Shown here piece after piece: positions 26,927 to 37,838 of a DNA stretch of 41,184 nt. Source of the stretch: Myxococcales bacterium (GTDB lineage Bacteria; Myxococcota_A; Polyangia; Fen-1088); NCBI GenBank assembly GCA_003158395.1, contig PMIX01000382.1, positions 604-41,787 on the forward strand, in the 5' to 3' direction. Below the pieces are notes generated by a model that was not told where the DNA came from, did not search any database, and worked only from the letters and a program-made list of their open reading frames with translations. The position numbers and the translations under genes were made by a program. Every line of letters begins with the position of its first letter. Positions within the stretch are counted from its first letter, which is position 1.

Positions 26927-28171
26927 CTACCGTGACAAGAGATAGATAGCGGTCCCCACGACGACCAAGATAGCGCCGACCACCGCCACTACCCGTTTCG
27001 CTTCCCGGCGTACAGGAGCGGCATCCAGGGTCGCGAGTGCCTCCGCGATGTGTTGGCGAAGTGCCCCGGCGCTTTCGTGCCGGTCCTTGCGAGCCTTGGC
27101 CACCATCTTCAGGACCACTTCATCCACCACGGCTGGGATCGCCAGGTCGGGTCGCAGGCTGGACGGGGTGGGAGGCGCCTCTTGCAGATGGAACTGGATG
27201 ATTTCCGTGGTGCTCTTCGCGTCCTTGAAGGGAAGCTGTCCGGTCAGCATCTCATAGGCGACCATACCTAGGGCGTAGACATCCGAGCGCCCATCCAGCG
27301 CCTTGCCACGCAGTTGTTCGGGCGACATGAATTCCAGGGTTCCCACGGTCTGCCCGATTGCGGTCAGGGCGGGTACCTTACTTCCGTCACCCGACAGGAT
27401 CTTCGCGATTCCGAAGTCCAGCACCTTCACAAAGTCCGCCTCGCCACGCCGCTCGACCATGATGTTCTCGGGTTTCATGTCACGGTGGACAATGCCTCTG
27501 TCGTGCGCCTCAGCCAGCGCCTCCGCGACCTGATCCAAGATGGCTAGGGCGCGGGTCGGTTCGATGACGCCGTCCCGGTGCTGGATCTCCTGCAAACTCT
27601 TGCCTCGAACCAGCTCCATGGCTAGGTAGAGGACTCCGTCCTCAGTTTGGTCAAAATCGTAGATGGTGACGGTGTGCGGGTTGCGAAGTTGCGAGCAGGC
27701 CTCGGCTTCGCGCCGGAAACGGGCTACCACAGTGGCATCGGCCACGCTGTGGGGGTGCAGGATCTTGAGCGCCACCGGCCGCCCGGTGGCGAGCTGCTTG
27801 CCTTCGAAGACCGCGCCAAATCCTCCTTCGCCGATCTTGCGTTCGACCCGGTAGCGGTTGTTCAGCGCCCGCCCCACCAGGCTGTCCAAGGAGGTCGGAC
27901 GGGGACCGGTTGCAATCGGGGCCGGCGTGATCGGAGGCGGAGCAAGCGGCACTACGCGACCGGAAAGCGGCACGCTGGCCTGGGCCACGGGAACGCCGGA
28001 TACGGGGCTCATCACGCGTGCAGGCTGGGAAGCGGCGGATTCGAGGGCTCGGTCGACGACGTTCCCAGATACAAGCGGCACAGCCGCACCGCAAACGCCG
28101 CAGAAGCGAGCCTCTGGCTCGGCGGCGGTCTTGCACTGTGGGCATAGCCTGGTCGCCATGGGTTCTCTCAC
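26927..28171 (-). CDS. Ser/Thr protein kinase with N-terminal zinc ribbon and extreme C-terminal TM helix
   Basis: CPQCKTAAEPEARFCGVCGAAV; GEGGFGAVFEGKQLATGRPVALKIL; HRDMKPENIMV; DFGIAK; tail RVVAVVGAILVVVGTAIYLLSR. Confidence 0.93.
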   Translation of the reverse strand: MREPMATRLCPQCKTAAEPEARFCGVCGAAVPLVSGNVVDRALESAASQPARVMSPVSGVPVAQASVPLSGRVVPLAPPPITPAPIATGPRPTSLDSLVGRALNNRYRVERKIGEGGFGAVFEGKQLATGRPVALKILHPHSVADATVVARFRREAEACSQLRNPHTVTIYDFDQTEDGVLYLAMELVRGKSLQEIQHRDGVIEPTRALAILDQVAEALAEAHDRGIVHRDMKPENIMVERRGEADFVKVLDFGIAKILSGDGSKVPALTAIGQTVGTLEFMSPEQLRGKALDGRSDVYALGMVAYEMLTGQLPFKDAKSTTEIIQFHLQEAPPTPSSLRPDLAIPAVVDEVVLKMVAKARKDRHESAGALRQHIAEALATLDAAPVRREAKRVVAVVGAILVVVGTAIYLLSR

Positions 28172-29428
28172 CTAGGGCTCTCTCCCAGCGTCGGCCGTGG
28201 ACGCCTCAAGTGCCTGTGGACGTGCGGGTGAGGGTGGCGCGATCGACGGGGACGCCACCCCGCTATGCGAGGCGAGGCTGGTCCGGTCGAAGCTGCGGTC
28301 TGGCATCCTTCCGCGCTGAGAAACCAGAAACAGGGCCCCCGCCAAGGCCGCCAGCAGGGTGACCAGAACAAAGGCAAGCAGAGAGCGGGGTTCTGGGATG
28401 GGTTGCGCGGGCAAGCGGGCGGCGCGGGCCCCGGGAGGAGTGCTGTCGATGGGATCCTTGGCCACCGTCAACTCGGTGGTGGCCTGTCGTTCTTGGACAG
28501 CGCTGGTTTCGTCTGCCTTCTCGGTCGAGAGCGGGAGTCCTTCAGGTTCAGGGTCTTCCGGATCCTGCCCCGGGTCGTAGGCCAGGAAGCTCACTTCGTC
28601 ATCGGCGCCCGCCTCGGGCAACCCGGGACCGTCGAATCGGGCAAGGACCACCGTAATGTTGTCGGGGCCATCGTGCTCGTTGGCGCGAGCAATGAGCCGA
28701 TCGCAAGCCTTTCTCACATCGGGCTGATCGAGCAGGATTTGCTTGATTTCGTCGTCGCTGACCGGGCCGTGCAACCCATCGGAGCAAACCAGAACCACAT
28801 CGCCTCGACGGAGCGGGACCTGTGAGAGCACGACCTCGACTTTCTCCTGGACGCCCAGCGCCTGCAGGATGATGTTGGCGTGCTCGAAGCCTTTGGCCTC
28901 CTCCAGCGTCATGGCGCCGGCTTCGATGAGCTGCCAGGCGAGAGATTGGTCCCTGGTTGTCTGGATCAGGCGGCCGCCGCGCAGCAAGTAGCAGCGTGAA
29001 TCCCCAACCTGCCCTATCAGCAAGGCGGCGTCGACCAACCCAACCGCCGTGCAGGTCGTGCCCATACCGCGCTCGCTCTGGTTGTCGCGCGATTGGGTGT
29101 AGATGCCTTCGTTGGCCTCCTCAATGGCGCGGCGCAGGCGACGCGCAAAACGCGCCCGCGACAGAGGGCCGGCGTCGCCGACAGCCGCCGAGATGGACTG
29201 CACGGCCATGGTTGAAGCGACCTCGCCCGCCGCGGCTCCCCCCATACCGTCACACACCAAAAAGAGAGCGCCCTTCTCCTCGAGCGAAAAGTCCAGTGAG
29301 GCGTCCGGCGAGGGCCCTTGCGCACTTGCAAAGTCCACCACGAGGAAGTTGTCCTCGTTGTGCTCACGCATCAGGCCGACGTCGGTCTTGCCGTAGACCG
29401 TGATCTTGATTTCAGAAGGGCTTGCCAT
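28172..29428 (-). CDS. PP2C-family protein phosphatase with C-terminal TM segment
   Basis: TDVGLMREHNEDNFLV, FLVCDGMGGAAAGEVAS, LVCSDGLHGPVSDDEI, EHDGPDNITVVLARF; TM LLAFVLVTLLAALAGALFLVSQ. Confidence 0.93.
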   Translation of the reverse strand: MASPSEIKITVYGKTDVGLMREHNEDNFLVVDFASAQGPSPDASLDFSLEEKGALFLVCDGMGGAAAGEVASTMAVQSISAAVGDAGPLSRARFARRLRRAIEEANEGIYTQSRDNQSERGMGTTCTAVGLVDAALLIGQVGDSRCYLLRGGRLIQTTRDQSLAWQLIEAGAMTLEEAKGFEHANIILQALGVQEKVEVVLSQVPLRRGDVVLVCSDGLHGPVSDDEIKQILLDQPDVRKACDRLIARANEHDGPDNITVVLARFDGPGLPEAGADDEVSFLAYDPGQDPEDPEPEGLPLSTEKADETSAVQERQATTELTVAKDPIDSTPPGARAARLPAQPIPEPRSLLAFVLVTLLAALAGALFLVSQRGRMPDRSFDRTSLASHSGVASPSIAPPSPARPQALEASTADAGREP

Positions 29429-29470
29429 CCGCGGGGCTTTGATTTGTCGTCCCTGCCTACAAGCTTCGCC

Positions 29471-30379
29471 TCAACCTATCTCGAAGCGCAAGAGTTCATC
29501 GCCGAGCCGAATCATTTCCCCGGGGACAAGGGCGTGTTGGCCGGTGAGGCGGACAAAAGTGCCATTCGAGCTACCCAGGTCGGAGAGCAGCGCAACGCCA
29601 CTGCGAAACTGAAGCAGGGCGTGGCGGCGGGACATGAACTCGTCGTCTGGGAAAACCATATCGCCCTGTTCGCGGCCGAGCACGAGGTCACTGCGAGTCA
29701 GGTGGTAAATATCGCGGCTTGTCCCCGCCGAAGTGAGCTGGCGCAGGCGTGCCCAGGGCGCCTTGAGCGGCGTGCCGAACAGGACCACGCCGTGTTCGAC
29801 GGCAGGACGCAGGGTCTTCTCGACATCGGATACGAACTCGAAGCGCAGGACCTGTTTGCCGACCAGGATCAGGTTGCCGTCCGCCAGCTCCACTGGTTGG
29901 CTAATGCGCCGGTAGACGCCGTTGCGGGATTCGAGCGGCGTGATCACATGTTGGCCGGCCCGCAGGGTGATGCGGGCATGGCGCGGGGCGAGATGCGGAT
30001 CATCGAAGTGGAGATCGCCTTCGCTGCGTCCAATGTCGACCTGCTCGCCGGGCAGGGGATATGACTCACCGTCACTGCCATCCCGTCGCACCGCCACCAA
30101 CCGTGGCCCGCCGGGCTGGCTGGCGGCTGCGACCGAGGGTCGGGCGGCCGCCGCCGCGGCCAAGGCCGCCGAGGCATCCGCGCTCATCGGAGTGGTGTGG
30201 CCGAGACGGCGCCCACACGCATGGCAGAAGTTGGTCCCCATCGGGTTGCGATTCCCGCACCCCGAGCAAACCAGGAACGAGTCGTCCGCAGGCGGCAGCC
30301 CCACAGGGGCGCCGCAGCGCTGACAGAAGGCAGCGCCATCCGTGAGCGCCCCGCCGCATTGGAGACAGCTAATAAGCAT
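29471..30379 (-). CDS. Double zinc-ribbon plus FHA-domain protein (probably two FHA modules)
   Basis: CLQCGGALTDGAAFCQRCG and CSGCGNRNPMGTNFCHACG; FHA motifs IGRSEGDLHFDDPHLAPRHARI and LGREQGDMVFPDDEFMSRRHALLQFRSGVALLSDLGSSNGTFVRL. Confidence 0.85.
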   Translation of the reverse strand: MLISCLQCGGALTDGAAFCQRCGAPVGLPPADDSFLVCSGCGNRNPMGTNFCHACGRRLGHTTPMSADASAALAAAAAARPSVAAASQPGGPRLVAVRRDGSDGESYPLPGEQVDIGRSEGDLHFDDPHLAPRHARITLRAGQHVITPLESRNGVYRRISQPVELADGNLILVGKQVLRFEFVSDVEKTLRPAVEHGVVLFGTPLKAPWARLRQLTSAGTSRDIYHLTRSDLVLGREQGDMVFPDDEFMSRRHALLQFRSGVALLSDLGSSNGTFVRLTGQHALVPGEMIRLGDELLRFEIG

Positions 30380-30550
30380 CTTCCCTAGTCGTTGCCAGAA
30401 AGGGCCGGCGAACGTTGCAAGGCAGCCCATCCTCTACTAGAAGGCGAGCGGGACATTACCTGTACAGACGGGCATGACACCCACCCATTCACCGTGCAGC
30501 AACTAATACCAACGATTTCGGAGAGCGTCAAATCCGCGCGAAGCGGGCCA

Positions 30551-31660
30551 TTGTCGAGGCTGACCAGGGCCGTCTTGCTTGCCGCCGTTGGATCGGCGTG
30601 TGGTCCCGTGGTGGAGAACGCGCCGTTCTCGGCACGCCCGGACACGCTGCGGCCGGGAGACCTTCTGGGACCCTTCGACGGAGTGGTCGCCGACGGCGAA
30701 ACCGACCGGCCGCTGGGGGGCGTCGTGGTGGCTGGGGCATGGGCATTCGAGCGTGGCATCGGCCTGCAGGGGCCGGCGGCTGCGCTGGAGGCCGCAACCG
30801 AAACGGGCGCGGACGGCCGCTATCGGGTGAGCATCCCCGCCGATCTTCCGAGGGGCGAAGGGGTCCGCCTGCGCCGATTCACCCTCATCGTCTACCGGCG
30901 AGGGTACGTGGCCTGGCGCAGCGACAGCAGCTTCCCGACGGGCGAGCCGCGCCACGACTTCGCCCAACGGGGAAACCGCGTACGCTTGGAAAAATGGCAG
31001 CCCTCCATGTCCCACTACCGGCATTTGGTTTTTCTGGGCGGCGGCCCCGCCGTCCGGACCGCGGCGGCTTGGGAGGTACAACTGGCGGGACTGGAACTCG
31101 ACGGCACCTCGCCTGCAACCACTTCCAAGCGCCCGGCAGAAGACGCGCGGGCTGGCTCGTCGGCCACGCTCGACATCTTGCCTCTCTTGTCCGAGGACGA
31201 AGTGCGCGGCGTGACCGGGTACGCAGGAAAGTTCGAGGTGGGCAAGTTGGCTGACCGAGCCACCAGCGACGTGTATGACAGCCGGCACTTCAAGGCCAGT
31301 GACAAGCCCGAAACCTATGACGTCGGCCTGCGGGTGTGGGCCGTCGGGTCGGAAGCCGCTGAAGCGCAATTCAGGAAGCTGCTCAGCGATCTCCCGAGCG
31401 CAGTTGCGACCGAAGAGATTGGGGATGCATCGCTCCGGGCCAAAGGCGGCGATGTGACCGGGTTCGCTTTCTTGTTGCGCGAGAAAGGAGTCGTGATGCA
31501 ACTGAGTTGCGGCCTTGCTCAGTGCCCTGAATCGTCGATGATCCTGCGTCTCGCCAAGCTGGCGGAAAGCCACCTACCCGAGGTCAGGCTCCCGTCGCCC
31601 GAGAGCACCGGGCTTCTGCCCGTGTCGGCTCCGTCGCTCGCACCGGGAGGCAAGCCGTGA
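30551..31660 (+). CDS. Exported protein with carboxypeptidase-regulatory-like domain near N-terminus
   Basis: FDGVVADGETDRPLGGVVVAGAWAFE...TGADGRYRVSIPADLPRGEGVRLRRFTLIVYRRGYVAWRS. Open from 30392; signal-like segment LSRLTRAVLLAAVGSACGP supports a TTG start near 30551. Confidence 0.5.
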   Translation: MSRLTRAVLLAAVGSACGPVVENAPFSARPDTLRPGDLLGPFDGVVADGETDRPLGGVVVAGAWAFERGIGLQGPAAALEAATETGADGRYRVSIPADLPRGEGVRLRRFTLIVYRRGYVAWRSDSSFPTGEPRHDFAQRGNRVRLEKWQPSMSHYRHLVFLGGGPAVRTAAAWEVQLAGLELDGTSPATTSKRPAEDARAGSSATLDILPLLSEDEVRGVTGYAGKFEVGKLADRATSDVYDSRHFKASDKPETYDVGLRVWAVGSEAAEAQFRKLLSDLPSAVATEEIGDASLRAKGGDVTGFAFLLREKGVVMQLSCGLAQCPESSMILRLAKLAESHLPEVRLPSPESTGLLPVSAPSLAPGGKP

Positions 31661-33120
31661 AGTGCACAGGCCTTGTCGCCGGCACGCGGTCCACGCTGGC
31701 AGCATTCGCGTGCGCGGGGGCGCTGTTCAGCTCTCCGGCGGCACGTGCGTATGAGCCAGCTACCACGCATGCTGGCTTGACCGAGCGCGCCCTGGAAGCC
31801 TCCCGACTGCACAACGTGATCGCCCGTCTGGGACGACCGCTGGGACTGCTGGAGCCTTTGCGTCTTGGCCTGGACCTCGTCGATCAGGACGAGCGGCGGG
31901 CCCTGCAGGCCCGGCTCGACTCGCTCGACCCGGCAGGCGGCTACCGGCCCGGGCCTGACGGCGAAGCGGGCGCAGGCCACTGGGTGGTGGCAGGTGCGGT
32001 CTTGGCCATGACGCCGCCTGAGCAGGGTGCGAATCATTTTTTGGATCCGGCGAGTGGGAGGGGACTGAGAGACGATCCGGGGCTGTCAGGTGTCGCCCAC
32101 ACCTTGCGGCTGCTCTTCGACGGCGGCACAAGCGTGCGCGAGCTTGCCGCGGGCACAGCCTTCAGCCTGGACGGCAAGTCCGCGCTGGACTGGATCGAGT
32201 CGCCGGGCAACGACTTGGGCGTTCCCGTGTTCTTCGACAACTGGGAGCGTGCCGTCACCTTGCCTGAACCGCGCGAACGTGAATCAGCCCTGGTGCGGGC
32301 CTTGCTAGCCCTCGGTGGGGTGATGGCGGTGCTCGAAGACGTCGGGGAGCCAGCCTTTGTGCGCAACGACTTCCGGGTTGCATTCCTGCAGCGGAACGAG
32401 GGCTCGGCCTACGAGCAGTTCGTGGCTGAGCGCTATGGCCGCACGGGGCTTCCTCCCGCGGCGACGCTGGTGCCCCGGCCCAATATCGTCAGTTTCTTTG
32501 CGTCCGACGACGGCCAAGGACTAGCCAATCGCACGCAGCGTCGCTTTTTTTCAGAGGGCACGATCCCCACCGACATCTCACTTGAACGAGACACCACGTT
32601 GGCCGACGTGGTTCGCCGGGCGCGCGAGTCGCTCGTGCTTTCCTCGCCCACCCTGTCCGGACTGGTGCTGAGGCCGGCGGAACACCGCCACTATCTGGTT
32701 CTGGAGGGCCGTCGTGTTCTTGCCTACGAAAACAGCGGGACACAAGTGCATTTCCTCCTCGATGACGTCGTCTACGCGGACATGGCGCGCGCTCTCCTGC
32801 CTGAGATCGCTGGCTACGCCGCGGGCTTGCTCAATCATCTCCTGCGAGCGAGCCTGGAGCTGACACTCGCGGGAAACAAGGGCACGACCAAGGTCACTGT
32901 GCGCCTGGGCAGTGATGTCAAGGAGGGCGGGGTTGTGCGCGTGTTTGTCGAGTACGGGAGCGGGCGTCGGCGTGAGCTGCCCGGAACGGCCGCGACACTG
33001 GCGCCGGGCGGTGAGATGGTGGTCGACCTGCCTGCCGGGGTCAAGAAGCTGGCCACGGTGCTGCGCGGTAGCGACGCCGGAGGCCCTTTCGTGGCCGCGG
33101 GGGAAGTGACGGTGCCGTGA
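31657..33120 (+). CDS. Exported protein, weakly zinc-phospholipase-C-like
   Basis: Signal peptide then YEPATTHAGLTERALEAS, GANHFLDPASGRGL, ALGGVMAVLEDVGEPAFVRNDF. GTG overlaps the upstream stop (GTGA). Confidence 0.4.
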   Translation: MKCTGLVAGTRSTLAAFACAGALFSSPAARAYEPATTHAGLTERALEASRLHNVIARLGRPLGLLEPLRLGLDLVDQDERRALQARLDSLDPAGGYRPGPDGEAGAGHWVVAGAVLAMTPPEQGANHFLDPASGRGLRDDPGLSGVAHTLRLLFDGGTSVRELAAGTAFSLDGKSALDWIESPGNDLGVPVFFDNWERAVTLPEPRERESALVRALLALGGVMAVLEDVGEPAFVRNDFRVAFLQRNEGSAYEQFVAERYGRTGLPPAATLVPRPNIVSFFASDDGQGLANRTQRRFFSEGTIPTDISLERDTTLADVVRRARESLVLSSPTLSGLVLRPAEHRHYLVLEGRRVLAYENSGTQVHFLLDDVVYADMARALLPEIAGYAAGLLNHLLRASLELTLAGNKGTTKVTVRLGSDVKEGGVVRVFVEYGSGRRRELPGTAATLAPGGEMVVDLPAGVKKLATVLRGSDAGGPFVAAGEVTVP

Positions 33121-33136: not shown

Positions 33137-34189
33137 CTAGACGCCTAGCGCGCGGGCCGCGAAGTAGGTTACAGCCGCGATGGCGGCCGACGCCGGGATG
33201 GTGAAGATCCAGGCCCACAGAATACGAGTGGCCACGCCCCAGCGGACCCGGCCGGGGTTGGACACAGAGCCCACGCCCAGAATGGCACCGGTAATGGTGT
33301 GCGTGGTCGACACGGGAATCCCCAAGGAAGTTGCGATGAAGATGGCCAGAGAGCCGCCGGTTTCAGCGCAGAATCCGCCAAAGGGACGCAGCTTGGTCAG
33401 CCGCATTCCCAAGGTCTTCACGATGCGCCAGCCGCCCGCCATGGTGCCTAGCCCCATGGCCAGATAGCAGGCAACGACGATCCAGACTGGAATGCGACCG
33501 GCTGTGTGGAACTCCTCGCCCAGCAGACCCTGGGAATAGAGCAGCACGGCGATGATCCCCATGGTCTTCTGCGCGTCGTTGCCGCCATGATTGAGGCTGA
33601 AAGCAGCCGCGGACAGGAGTTGCAGGCGCCGGAACCACTTGTCCACGCGCCCGGGTGTTGACTTGCGGAACAGCCAAGAAGTGGTGACGGCCAGCAGGTA
33701 CGAAGCAAAGAAGCCGATAATCGGAGACAGGAAGATGAAAGCAGCGGTGCTGCCGATCTTCTGCCAGCCCAGGATGCCGAGCCCCGCCTTGGATACGCCC
33801 GCGCCTATCAAGCCGCCCACGAGGGCGTGGGACGAGCTGGACGGCAGACCCCACAACCAGGTGAGCAGGTTCCATGCGATGGCCCCACCCAGGGCGCCGA
33901 CGATCACAGCGACGTCGACCACGCCCGGGTCGATGATCCCCTTGCCAATGGTGCTGGCCACCTGGTGCTTGAAGAGCGCGAAGGCGATGAAGTTGAAGAA
34001 TGCCGCCCACAGCACCGCGCGGAACGGCGTCAAGACGCGAGTCGAGACGATGGTTGCGATAGAGTTGGCCGCGTCGTGAAACCCGTTGATGAAGTCGAAG
34101 GCCAGGGCGGCGACGACCACCGCGACGATCAGGATGATTTGGTTGAGATTCAATGCGTTCATGAGGACAGTGACACCAAGAGGGGTCAA
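33137..34189 (-). CDS. PiT-family inorganic phosphate transporter
   Basis: FDFINGFHDAANSIATIVSTRVL, WGLPSSSSHALVGGLIGAG, LNHGGNDAQKTMGI, GIPVSTTHTITGAILGVG. Confidence 0.94.
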   Translation of the reverse strand: MTPLGVTVLMNALNLNQIILIVAVVVAALAFDFINGFHDAANSIATIVSTRVLTPFRAVLWAAFFNFIAFALFKHQVASTIGKGIIDPGVVDVAVIVGALGGAIAWNLLTWLWGLPSSSSHALVGGLIGAGVSKAGLGILGWQKIGSTAAFIFLSPIIGFFASYLLAVTTSWLFRKSTPGRVDKWFRRLQLLSAAAFSLNHGGNDAQKTMGIIAVLLYSQGLLGEEFHTAGRIPVWIVVACYLAMGLGTMAGGWRIVKTLGMRLTKLRPFGGFCAETGGSLAIFIATSLGIPVSTTHTITGAILGVGSVSNPGRVRWGVATRILWAWIFTIPASAAIAAVTYFAARALGV

Positions 34190-34399: not shown

Positions 34400-36274
34400 C
34401 TAGCGCTGCAACACGTTGTCGGGCACACTCACACCGCCCGCTTCCAGCTTGCCAGCCAGGCGTGACGACACGCGGGTGGCAATGAAGCGGCCCTTGCCTT
34501 TGCCTTTGCTCTGCCAGGCGAAGAGGGTCTCGGCGCGCAGTTCACCAGCAGATCCCAAGGTGGGCTCTGCGATCTCCATGACCCGGACACTCCCATCAGT
34601 CTGCGTGACAGCGTAGACCAGCATGTCGAGACTCGATCCGAGGAGGTCATTGGGCGTCGAGGACGGCCCAGAGGCCGCGCCCATCACCCGCAGTCGGTAG
34701 AGGGCATCGTTTGCCGAGCGGGCGATCAGGGCGGTGAGAACGCCATTTTGCCCCCGGGCGCATTCTCGCAGCAAGTCGCCCAAGAGCAGGAATGCCGCCG
34801 CGTCTGCAACGACATAGTCAGGTCGGAGCGCTATTGCAGCCGCGACCAAGTCAGGAGTGCGGGCAGCGACCGGCAGCTTCAACCAAGTGGCTGCGCTGGC
34901 CGGTGGGCTGATGGTCTCGGCCAGCACCACGACCCGTGCCACCCGATCGAGCGACCAGGCCAAGGTGCCTAGAAGCAGGTCGCAAGCCGGTCGGTCGCCC
35001 GCGATGAGGAGGTTCTGCCGAGTGCCTACGCATGCTTCGAGGAGCTGCTGCATCTCGGGTGAGAGGCTTCCGTCGGCCACCAACTCTTCTAGAGTCTTGT
35101 GGCCAACGTTCGGCCGTCGAATTGAGGCGTACACGCGGTCGCACAGTGGCGGAAACAGGGCCGTGATGCGTGTGCCATCGGCCAGGGTCGTGTCAATGAC
35201 CGGCGCATCGGGTTCTGGTCGCGGGACGCCCTTGCCAGCCAGCCTGCGCAGATGGTCCGGCAGCGAGGCCAAATCGGCTGATGCGACGACAGCCGATTCT
35301 CGATGACCGTTCCGCTCAACCTCCACCGACTGCGTTCCGGCAAAGAACGCAGCGGTTGCGTCGTCGCTGTCCAGCAAGTGAGCCAGCCAGCGGGGGTAAT
35401 CTCCGCTTGCCTGTGGGGGTGCCGGAGGAAGGATGGACGGGGAAAAGGCGGCAGAAGAAGGGGCGGCCGAGGAAGGGGCGGTCAGGGCAGGGGCGGCCGG
35501 GGGCGGAGGCACAGGCGGCGGAGCTACCATCGCGGGTCGCTCTGGCTCGTGGACCAGGGGCGCCGGCGTGCCTCGGGGCATGGTCCGGGGCTCGTCGGGC
35601 GACGGCGACGGCGGCAGGACGGGAACCGGCGGCTTGAGGGGAGGGAGGTTCAGGCGCGGTGCCGGGCTAGACAAGCTATCATCGTCATCTAGGCTTATTT
35701 CCGTAGGCAGGGAAGGCGCGAGATGGGCCTCGGCTGTCACCGCAGGCATGGGTTTGCTTTCTCGCTTGGGGGGTGGCGGCGGGACATGGAGCGCGGATCC
35801 GCGTGTGGGCAGGGGCCCGGAACCCTCATCGGCTCCGCGCAAGACAGGGGGTCGTGGTGGCGGGGGAGGGGGAGGAGGCGGCGGCCGCCGGGGCAAGGCT
35901 GTGCTGAGCGAGCCTGCCTCGGGCGCCGAGGACGCGTACGGCGGTGGCGGCGGCAGAATGCCGGGTTGTGATTCGGCTCCGCGCACCCCGCTGGTGACGC
36001 GAATGACGAAATCGCCGACGAAAACCTTGTCGGCGGTGCCAAGCGACGTGGCTTCGGTGATCTTCCGGCCGTTCACATAGGTCCCGTTGGTGCTGCCCAG
36101 GTCTTCGACCACGAGCTGGCCGTCCTGAAGCAGCAGGTGACAGTGGTGCTTGGACACATTGCCCTTGGGAAGCACGATGTCGTTGTCTCGGACTCGTCCC
36201 ACCCGGATTTCAGTCTTATCGAAGCTGAGATCCTTGGAATCTCCACCTTTCTCGGCCAGCGTGAGGATCAGCAT
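34400..36274 (-). CDS. FHA domain - Pro-rich linker - CpaF-like secretion-ATPase domain with degenerate nucleotide-binding motifs
   Basis: FHA: RVGRVRDNDIVLPKGNVSKHHCHL...DLGSTNGTYVNG. CpaF-like: VIDTTLADGTRITALFPPLCDRVYASIRRP...TLEELVADGSLSPEMQQLLEACVGTRQNLLIAGDRPACDLLLG...IALRPDYVVADAAAF...NDALYRLRVM. Confidence 0.75.
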   Translation of the reverse strand: MLILTLAEKGGDSKDLSFDKTEIRVGRVRDNDIVLPKGNVSKHHCHLLLQDGQLVVEDLGSTNGTYVNGRKITEATSLGTADKVFVGDFVIRVTSGVRGAESQPGILPPPPPYASSAPEAGSLSTALPRRPPPPPPPPPPRPPVLRGADEGSGPLPTRGSALHVPPPPPKRESKPMPAVTAEAHLAPSLPTEISLDDDDSLSSPAPRLNLPPLKPPVPVLPPSPSPDEPRTMPRGTPAPLVHEPERPAMVAPPPVPPPPAAPALTAPSSAAPSSAAFSPSILPPAPPQASGDYPRWLAHLLDSDDATAAFFAGTQSVEVERNGHRESAVVASADLASLPDHLRRLAGKGVPRPEPDAPVIDTTLADGTRITALFPPLCDRVYASIRRPNVGHKTLEELVADGSLSPEMQQLLEACVGTRQNLLIAGDRPACDLLLGTLAWSLDRVARVVVLAETISPPASAATWLKLPVAARTPDLVAAAIALRPDYVVADAAAFLLLGDLLRECARGQNGVLTALIARSANDALYRLRVMGAASGPSSTPNDLLGSSLDMLVYAVTQTDGSVRVMEIAEPTLGSAGELRAETLFAWQSKGKGKGRFIATRVSSRLAGKLEAGGVSVPDNVLQR

Positions 36275-36418
36275 GGCAACACGCTAAGCAAAAATGTGCT
36301 CCTTGTCCACTTGTGGGTCGTCGTGGCATTGGCGACTATCGTGCGGGCTCGCTCTGTGGTGGAATGATGGACAGCCCGTGGTGGACGCAACTATCAACTG
36401 CCTAGATGGAGGGTGACT

Positions 36419-37012
36419 ATGCGGATCCCGAGAATCGCTGCTTTGGCCGGAACTTTGACCGTGGCGATCAGCTTCGCCGGTCGCGCGAGCGGCGATGCCC
36501 AAAAGCCAAAGTACTACTTTATCATAAGTGGCGTAACCTCTGAAGACAAAAACATTATTCCTTTGGCAAAAGGACTCCTTGCCAAGGATATTTTGAGCCG
36601 CTCCGAGTTCACCCAGGACCTGGGTGGTGCCGAGGGCGAAGCCGCCAGGGCTGCAGCGATGCGCAAGCTAGGGCTACAGGGCTTTCAGGTGAACCTGCGA
36701 ATCACAAACTTTAGGAAGGAAATCAAACCGCCGGCGCCCGGCCGACGCGACAGGCAGATGGCCATCCAGGTCAAGCTGGGTGTGTACGGTACGACCTACC
36801 CCGGAGGAAAGCTCAGCTTCACCGGTGACGGCGAGGCTTCGCTTGTGGGCGATTTTGCGGAGCGACGCATGGAAAGTGACGTCGAGGACATGACGAAGAC
36901 AGCCCTCGCAACTGCGCTGAAACAGGCCGTCAGCACGGCGGTAGCCAAAATGTCAACCGCCACTCTGCCAGATTCACCCCGACGCACGGGCAAGAAGAAC
37001 AAGTCCAGGTAG
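36419..37012 (+). CDS. Hypothetical exported protein
   Basis: Signal peptide RIPRIAALAGTLTVAISFAGRASG; no recognised domain. Track start 36413. Confidence 0.55.
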   Translation: MRIPRIAALAGTLTVAISFAGRASGDAQKPKYYFIISGVTSEDKNIIPLAKGLLAKDILSRSEFTQDLGGAEGEAARAAAMRKLGLQGFQVNLRITNFRKEIKPPAPGRRDRQMAIQVKLGVYGTTYPGGKLSFTGDGEASLVGDFAERRMESDVEDMTKTALATALKQAVSTAVAKMSTATLPDSPRRTGKKNKSR

Positions 37013-37076: not shown

Positions 37077-37838
37077 GTGTGCCCCGCTATGTGGTTCAAT
37101 CGCCCAGGCTCCCGAGCCCACACAACCTTAGCGCTTCTCGTTCTGGTCGGTGCTTGCAAGAAGGGGGCGCCGCCGGCTCCACCACCCACGGCCCAGGCCG
37201 AGCTGCCGCCGCTCGAGGTGAGCAAGGATTCGGCGCTGCTCTTTACCCATGTTGGGCCCAACGGAAGCTTCGCCACGACCGACAAGGCCGATAAGGTGCC
37301 CGAGGTTGCCCGGCGTCTAGTGCGGGTCATCGACCCGGCCAAGGGTGTGGCCGAGCGGCGTGACACGTCCAACGTCTATGTCGTTGACCTGCGCGAGTTG
37401 CTTGCCAACGGCAAGGCGCGGGCACGGGCCATGTCCCGCGAGGCCTTCGAGACCGGCGCGTTGGCGCAGTTGCCGCCGGGTGATTCCAGCACGCTGACCG
37501 GCCCTCATGGTCCGCCGTTGCCCGAGGAGCCCGGGGAAGCGGGCTCGGATGCTGGGATCGCGGGTCATGCGTCCGCAGGCGGCCCGCCGGTCGTCATCCT
37601 GTACGGAACACCGTGGTGCGGAGCCTGCAAGGCAGCGCGCCAGTACCTGGCTGCCAAACGCATTCCCTTTGCCTACAAAGACATCGAAAATGATCAGTCC
37701 GCTGCGCGCGAGCTGCAACAGAAGGCGTCGCGGTTGGGAATTCCAGCGGATCGGGTGCCCATCCTCGACGTGCGAGGCCGCTTGCTGGTCGGATTCGACC
37801 GAGCTCGACTGGAGGCACTGTTGGGCGATGCGACGTGA
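37077..37838 (+). CDS. Putative lipoprotein with C-terminal glutaredoxin-like domain
   Basis: LALLVLVGACKKG lipobox; VVILYGTPWCGACKAARQYLAAKRIPFAYKDIENDQSAARELQQKASRLGIPADRVPILDVRGRLLVGFD. Confidence 0.75.
   Translation: MCPAMWFNRPGSRAHTTLALLVLVGACKKGAPPAPPPTAQAELPPLEVSKDSALLFTHVGPNGSFATTDKADKVPEVARRLVRVIDPAKGVAERRDTSNVYVVDLRELLANGKARARAMSREAFETGALAQLPPGDSSTLTGPHGPPLPEEPGEAGSDAGIAGHASAGGPPVVILYGTPWCGACKAARQYLAAKRIPFAYKDIENDQSAARELQQKASRLGIPADRVPILDVRGRLLVGFDRARLEALLGDAT

Follow-up and report, generated by a model that had tools for sequence, protein, structure and literature searches.

The window, i.e. the whole stretch of 41,184 nucleotides that was analysed, carries on its minus strand the gene for a 624-aa protein, here called FHA-pseudo-CpaF. 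The open reading frame is as the earlier note gave it, and every peptide quoted there is present. The gene is organized as follows:

34400..36274, minus strand: FHA-pseudo-CpaF gene, 624 aa, ATG start
35981..36274, minus strand: FHA domain, residues 1-98; G26, R27, S41, H44 and N63 intact
35405..35980, minus strand: Pro-rich linker, residues 99-290, presumed from its composition to be disordered; relaxed (dN/dS 0.32)
34403..35404, minus strand: degenerate CpaF domain, residues 291-624; both the NTD and the C-terminal ATPase domain are present (dN/dS 0.17)
34967..34996, minus strand: site of the lost P-loop, DRPACDLLLG, residues 427-436

The surrounding genes are the following:

26927..28171, minus strand: Ser/Thr protein kinase with a zinc ribbon, syntenic
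28172..29428, minus strand: PP2C-type phosphatase, syntenic
29471..30430, minus strand: zinc-ribbon-FHA-FHA protein, syntenic
30392..31660, plus strand: neighbour c4, lipoprotein-like, conserved, no Pfam or NCBIfam family
31657..33120, plus strand: neighbour c3, secreted-like, conserved, no Pfam or NCBIfam family
33137..34189, minus strand: PiT-type phosphate transporter, downstream neighbour in this genus only
36413..37012, plus strand: neighbour c6, secreted-like, conserved
37077..37838, plus strand: glutaredoxin-domain protein, N-terminus lipoprotein-like, conserved next to the locus within the family

The kinase, PP2C and zinc-ribbon-FHA-FHA genes (26927-30430, minus strand) are arranged head to tail with gaps of 0-42 nt, and zinc ribbons are found at the N-terminus of both the kinase and the FHA protein.

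The N-terminal part of the 624-aa protein matches Pfam FHA at residues 23-84 (E=1e-16). As judged from the sequence comparisons, the CpaF homology of the C-terminal domain is certain, despite the fact that Pfam does not detect a T2SSE domain in the protein; the NCBIfam TadA model TIGR03819 also stays below its threshold (66 bits vs the cut-off of 373). Residues 299-599 match the CpaF structures 8rkd and 9e24 in the PDB with E=5e-19 in a single-sequence phmmer search, and a profile of 10 orthologs of the window protein reaches PDB CpaF with E=3e-42. In the hhalign profile-profile comparison the probability is 99.9 % over 330 columns, end to end (residues ~296-624). The real domain scores 104 bits, with a maximum of 9 bits among 200 shuffled sequences. 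The proposed fusion of an FHA domain to a CpaF-like domain, as well as the CpaF similarity of residues ~300-624, is thus borne out by Pfam for the former and by phmmer, profile and hhalign searches for the latter. The AlphaFold2 prediction, based on 6 near-identical sequences, had low scores (pLDDT 47, pTM 0.30) and was not used, so the retention of the fold in the CpaF domain rests on the sequence profiles.

The NTD and C-terminal ATPase domain align end to end with those of CpaF/TadA, the motor ATPase of the Tad pilus (PDB 8rkd, 9e24; PMC12019362, PMC11300603), but the three-helix bundle upstream of the CpaF domain is missing in the family of the window protein. The order of N-terminal FHA domain, linker and CpaF domain is that of the class III CpaF proteins (PMC12019362) and of KilF from M. 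xanthus (PMC8460266).

The residues of the active site, numbered according to C. crescentus CpaF (PMC12019362), are lost in the window protein. The Walker A motif GGTGSGKTT reads GDRPA-CDL, with K287 and T288 gone, and Walker B, VGE(357), is replaced by ADA, in agreement with the earlier note, to which both motifs appeared lost. Further losses concern the Asp-box glutamates E308 and E312 (VLAETISP), the arginine finger R347, which is an alanine, and the His box, where TTxH(382) is changed to TALI; only the NTD arginines remain among the canonical contacts examined. An intact P-loop was also looked for elsewhere, and GK[ST] is absent throughout the whole protein and its genus orthologs. The surroundings of D215/R217 (DGTR) and the IRRP segment are retained, so the first lobe resembles CpaF more closely than the active site does. 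In Caulobacter CpaF the K287A substitution by itself leaves no ATPase activity (PMC12019362). We infer that the window protein does not hydrolyse ATP, and it probably does not bind ATP either. KilF, described as an ATPase and required for killing (PMC8460266), differs from it in this respect, the window protein having none of the catalytic residues.

The same losses are found in the five genus orthologs (~80 % identical) and in the family orthologs (identity down to 34 %), the protein being present in 15 of the 18 family genomes. Strain-level decay is ruled out by the genus orthologs. The fragmentation of the source genome (88.9 % complete, 461 contigs) could suggest an artefact of assembly, a frameshift or a strain-specific pseudogene, but in independent assemblies the reading frame is also open and equally long, the losses are identical and synteny is conserved, and this explanation is refuted by the orthologs to the point of being negligible. 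Within the genus, dN/dS (Nei-Gojobori, 5 sequences) is 0.16 for the FHA domain, 0.17 for the CpaF domain and 0.32 for the linker; both domains are under purifying selection. A full-length CpaF domain is retained in every family member read. The loss is therefore shared by genus and family and maintained by selection, and with its catalytic residues lost and its domain and gene kept, the predicted protein is a pseudoenzyme.

The earlier note treated the gene as a local curiosity, but within a class of myxobacteria it is class-wide, near-universal and usually single-copy, with a traceable catalytic ancestor. In 191 class genomes of at least 85 % completeness, searched with a profile of the FHA type of the window protein (E<=1e-27), this FHA type is found in 169, nearly always as one match per genome. 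About 80 further class loci were read, for a total of 103 FHA proteins, and a CpaF-like domain is present in all 103 (weakest match E=3e-4). An intact ATPase site is present in six of these proteins, from families f2, f7, f18 and f20; two others are truncated, and the remaining 95 are all more or less degenerate. Among these 95 rows, GK[ST] (K287 and S/T288) survives in 5; K287, E312, E357 and H382 occur together in none of them, and 43 have none of the four. All 103 class proteins, and likewise all 38 proteins from outside the class, have the FHA pocket residues G26, R27, S41, H44 and N63 unchanged, and by these residues the FHA domain should be competent for phosphothreonine reading, as had been assumed. 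The CpaF domains of the 38 outside proteins are mostly degenerate as well. In family f3 (L059, L061, L070, L087) a deletion of three residues, and not substitution alone, has shortened the P-loop.

Some class relatives (L054, L090-L092, L163) keep GKT and the Walker B glutamate. Family f35, from outside the class, mostly keeps the P-loop lysine, E357 and the histidine (L168, L169, L172, L176, L177, L181, L201-L203) and is possibly an ATP-binding form. Both groups would be in line with an atypical active enzyme, in which nucleotide would be bound or hydrolysed at a non-canonical site. For the window protein such activity is very improbable, as K287, T288, E308, E312, R347, E357 and H382 are all gone and the K287A change alone abolishes CpaF activity (PMC12019362).

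The trees, computed without the catalytic motif columns, have the intact forms branching first (support 98/95), followed by L054, L095, family f12 and then all fully degenerate proteins. L054 has GKT and the Walker B glutamate and has lost the histidine, and in the mixed family f12 GKT is present in four proteins and gone in three. A single loss of the P-loop, with the GKT-less proteins as one clade, was rejected (p-AU 0.0004). At least 4 losses of GKT were counted by hand on the tree, if regain is excluded. On these trees the loss of the catalytic residues is stepwise and occurred more than once within the class. The intact forms are basal on these motif-free trees, and the family is read as descended from a catalytic, FHA-fused CpaF motor of class III, KilF-like.

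Repeated and stepwise loss of the motifs could also describe a decaying relic, with the FHA domain carrying the function and the CpaF domain an eroding vestige. The missing three-helix bundle would be consistent with erosion, as would the CpaF similarity in L093, L139 and L148, which is barely detectable. The low dN/dS of the CpaF domain and its persistence, at full length in all family members read and across the class, argue against a vestige, and we regard this explanation as improbable.

According to the earlier note, the protein might be a scaffold or regulator of a Tad/T2SS-like ATPase; the regulation of a Tad ATPase is unsupported by searches for CpaF and TadB in family and class. The 7 genomes of the own genus (incomplete but concordant) and two other near-complete carriers, G008 and G012, gave neither canonical CpaF nor TadB. 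Of the 18 family genomes, 5 have a canonical CpaF (a partial copy in G016), and these five are also the ones with TadB. In the class, TadB is found in 103 of 191 genomes. The FHA protein and TadB occur together in 89 genomes, the FHA protein only in 80, TadB only in 14 and neither in 8, a count in which two FHA-negative genomes are taken to be G195 and G198. With 80 of the 169 carriers of FHA-CpaF lacking TadB, its presence has no class-wide association with Tad. The intact-site genomes in the sample (G023, G031, G051, G063, G068) all have TadB. The presence of FHA-pseudo-CpaF is independent of Tad, and the gene persists without the Tad machinery.

A regulatory subunit or inhibitor would co-assemble with an active CpaF, PilB or GspE, or compete for its platform, in a phospho-switched manner. 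Hexameric secretion ATPases have this fold, TadB is also present in 89 of the 169 class carriers, and the source genome has other T2SSE-family ATPases. These are of non-CpaF subfamilies, however, and nothing ties them to the window protein. CpaF and TadB are both missing from the own genus and from several near-complete carriers, Tad association is absent class-wide and no secretion or pilus genes adjoin the gene. Such a role is doubtful, although less so than that of a vestige.

In the intact relatives L055, L060, L062, L097 and L137 the gene order is secretin, FHA-CpaF and FHA/TPR. The secretin is absent from the degenerate loci. In M. xanthus, Kil cluster 1 contains KilC (the secretin), KilF (the FHA-fused ATPase) and, downstream of KilF, KilD; the platform genes belong to another cluster (PMC8460266). 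The intact basal relatives are likened to it by gene order (secretin, FHA-CpaF, FHA protein, with platform genes elsewhere), and in the genome of L060 TadB/TadC are on a separate contig (L220). The genus of the window protein, unlike these systems, has no Tad genes and no Tad/Kil ATPase and platform. Of 142 loci, intact and degenerate ones taken together, 40 have a co-oriented FHA gene downstream at a distance below 200 nt.

The Ser/Thr kinase to which the earlier note had pointed belongs to a compact Ser/Thr phosphorylation operon (26927-30430), and the kinase, PP2C and FHA genes are in conserved synteny within the family. The family block consists of FHA-pseudo-CpaF, an SMI1-TPR gene, c3 and c4 on the opposite strand, zinc-ribbon-FHA-FHA, PP2C and the kinase; the SMI1-TPR gene follows FHA-pseudo-CpaF in other family members and is replaced by the PiT transporter in the own genus. 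Portions of the block (kinase, PP2C, zinc-ribbon-FHA-FHA, c3, c4) recur in families f6, f12, f13, f19 and f23. Synteny of c3 and c4 with FHA-pseudo-CpaF is seen in several families. A universal kinase/PP2C partnership was rejected, the synteny being found in the own family and partly in others, not class-wide; different genes adjoin FHA-CpaF in other families. As the adjacency is not universal, the phospho-partner may be encoded in trans.

The best explanation, to which we assign a probability of roughly 55 %, is that FHA-pseudo-CpaF is a pseudoenzyme derived from an FHA-fused CpaF motor and now acts as an ATP-independent, phospho-dependent scaffold together with FHA/TPR partners. We infer the scaffold function, phosphothreonine docking, oligomerisation and control by kinase and PP2C. 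The FHA domain would dock on a phosphothreonine of a partner, the mark being set by a Hanks-type kinase and removed by a PP2C phosphatase, and the CpaF domain may serve as an oligomerising or docking platform on which the partners gather. The best partner candidates here are the syntenic kinase/PP2C pair and the zinc-ribbon-FHA-FHA protein; elsewhere the candidate is the FHA/TPR protein encoded directly downstream. The protein would then be a phosphorylation-controlled scaffold that outlived its pilus. From family to family the CpaF domain has diverged strongly, which counts against a scaffold and is compatible with a loosely constrained role.

The FHA signalling adaptors (T6SS Fha, PMC3953482; GarA, PDB 6i2q) likewise have an intact phosphothreonine-binding FHA domain, which here lies near a kinase and a phosphatase and, unlike in these adaptors, is fused to a pseudo-CpaF. 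The T6SS Fha proteins offer a precedent for a secretion machine that is switched through an FHA domain (PMC3953482).

The ATPases of secretion systems and pili are seen as motors, and the class III FHA-CpaF proteins are included with them. One class of myxobacteria holds here a graded series with intact, partly eroded and fully dead members and an invariant phospho-reader, which opens the proposed change from motor to signalling scaffold to direct tests. The wider proposal, that a type IV filament motor became an ATP-independent, phosphothreonine-controlled scaffold, stepwise and in several lineages, near-universal in the class and kept without a pilus, has in our estimate even odds. Such genes should not be annotated as ATPases or taken as evidence of Tad or Kil systems, and they point to a Ser/Thr phosphorylation module that is conserved in myxobacteria. 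No published account of a degenerate or dead CpaF family was found in the open-access literature searched, though this does not establish that there is none.

A second, intact FHA-CpaF type is present in the phylum, between the secretin and TadB-TadC (L215 6746-8659, L216 7150-9027, L218 7013-8875, L219 6193-8064). Its FHA domain differs (VSRRH, SANG), and it is distinct from the family of the window protein and not to be confused with it. DUF4388 domains recurrently adjoin FHA-CpaF genes, either alone or fused to FHA (L142 3243-4226, L060 14672-15943).
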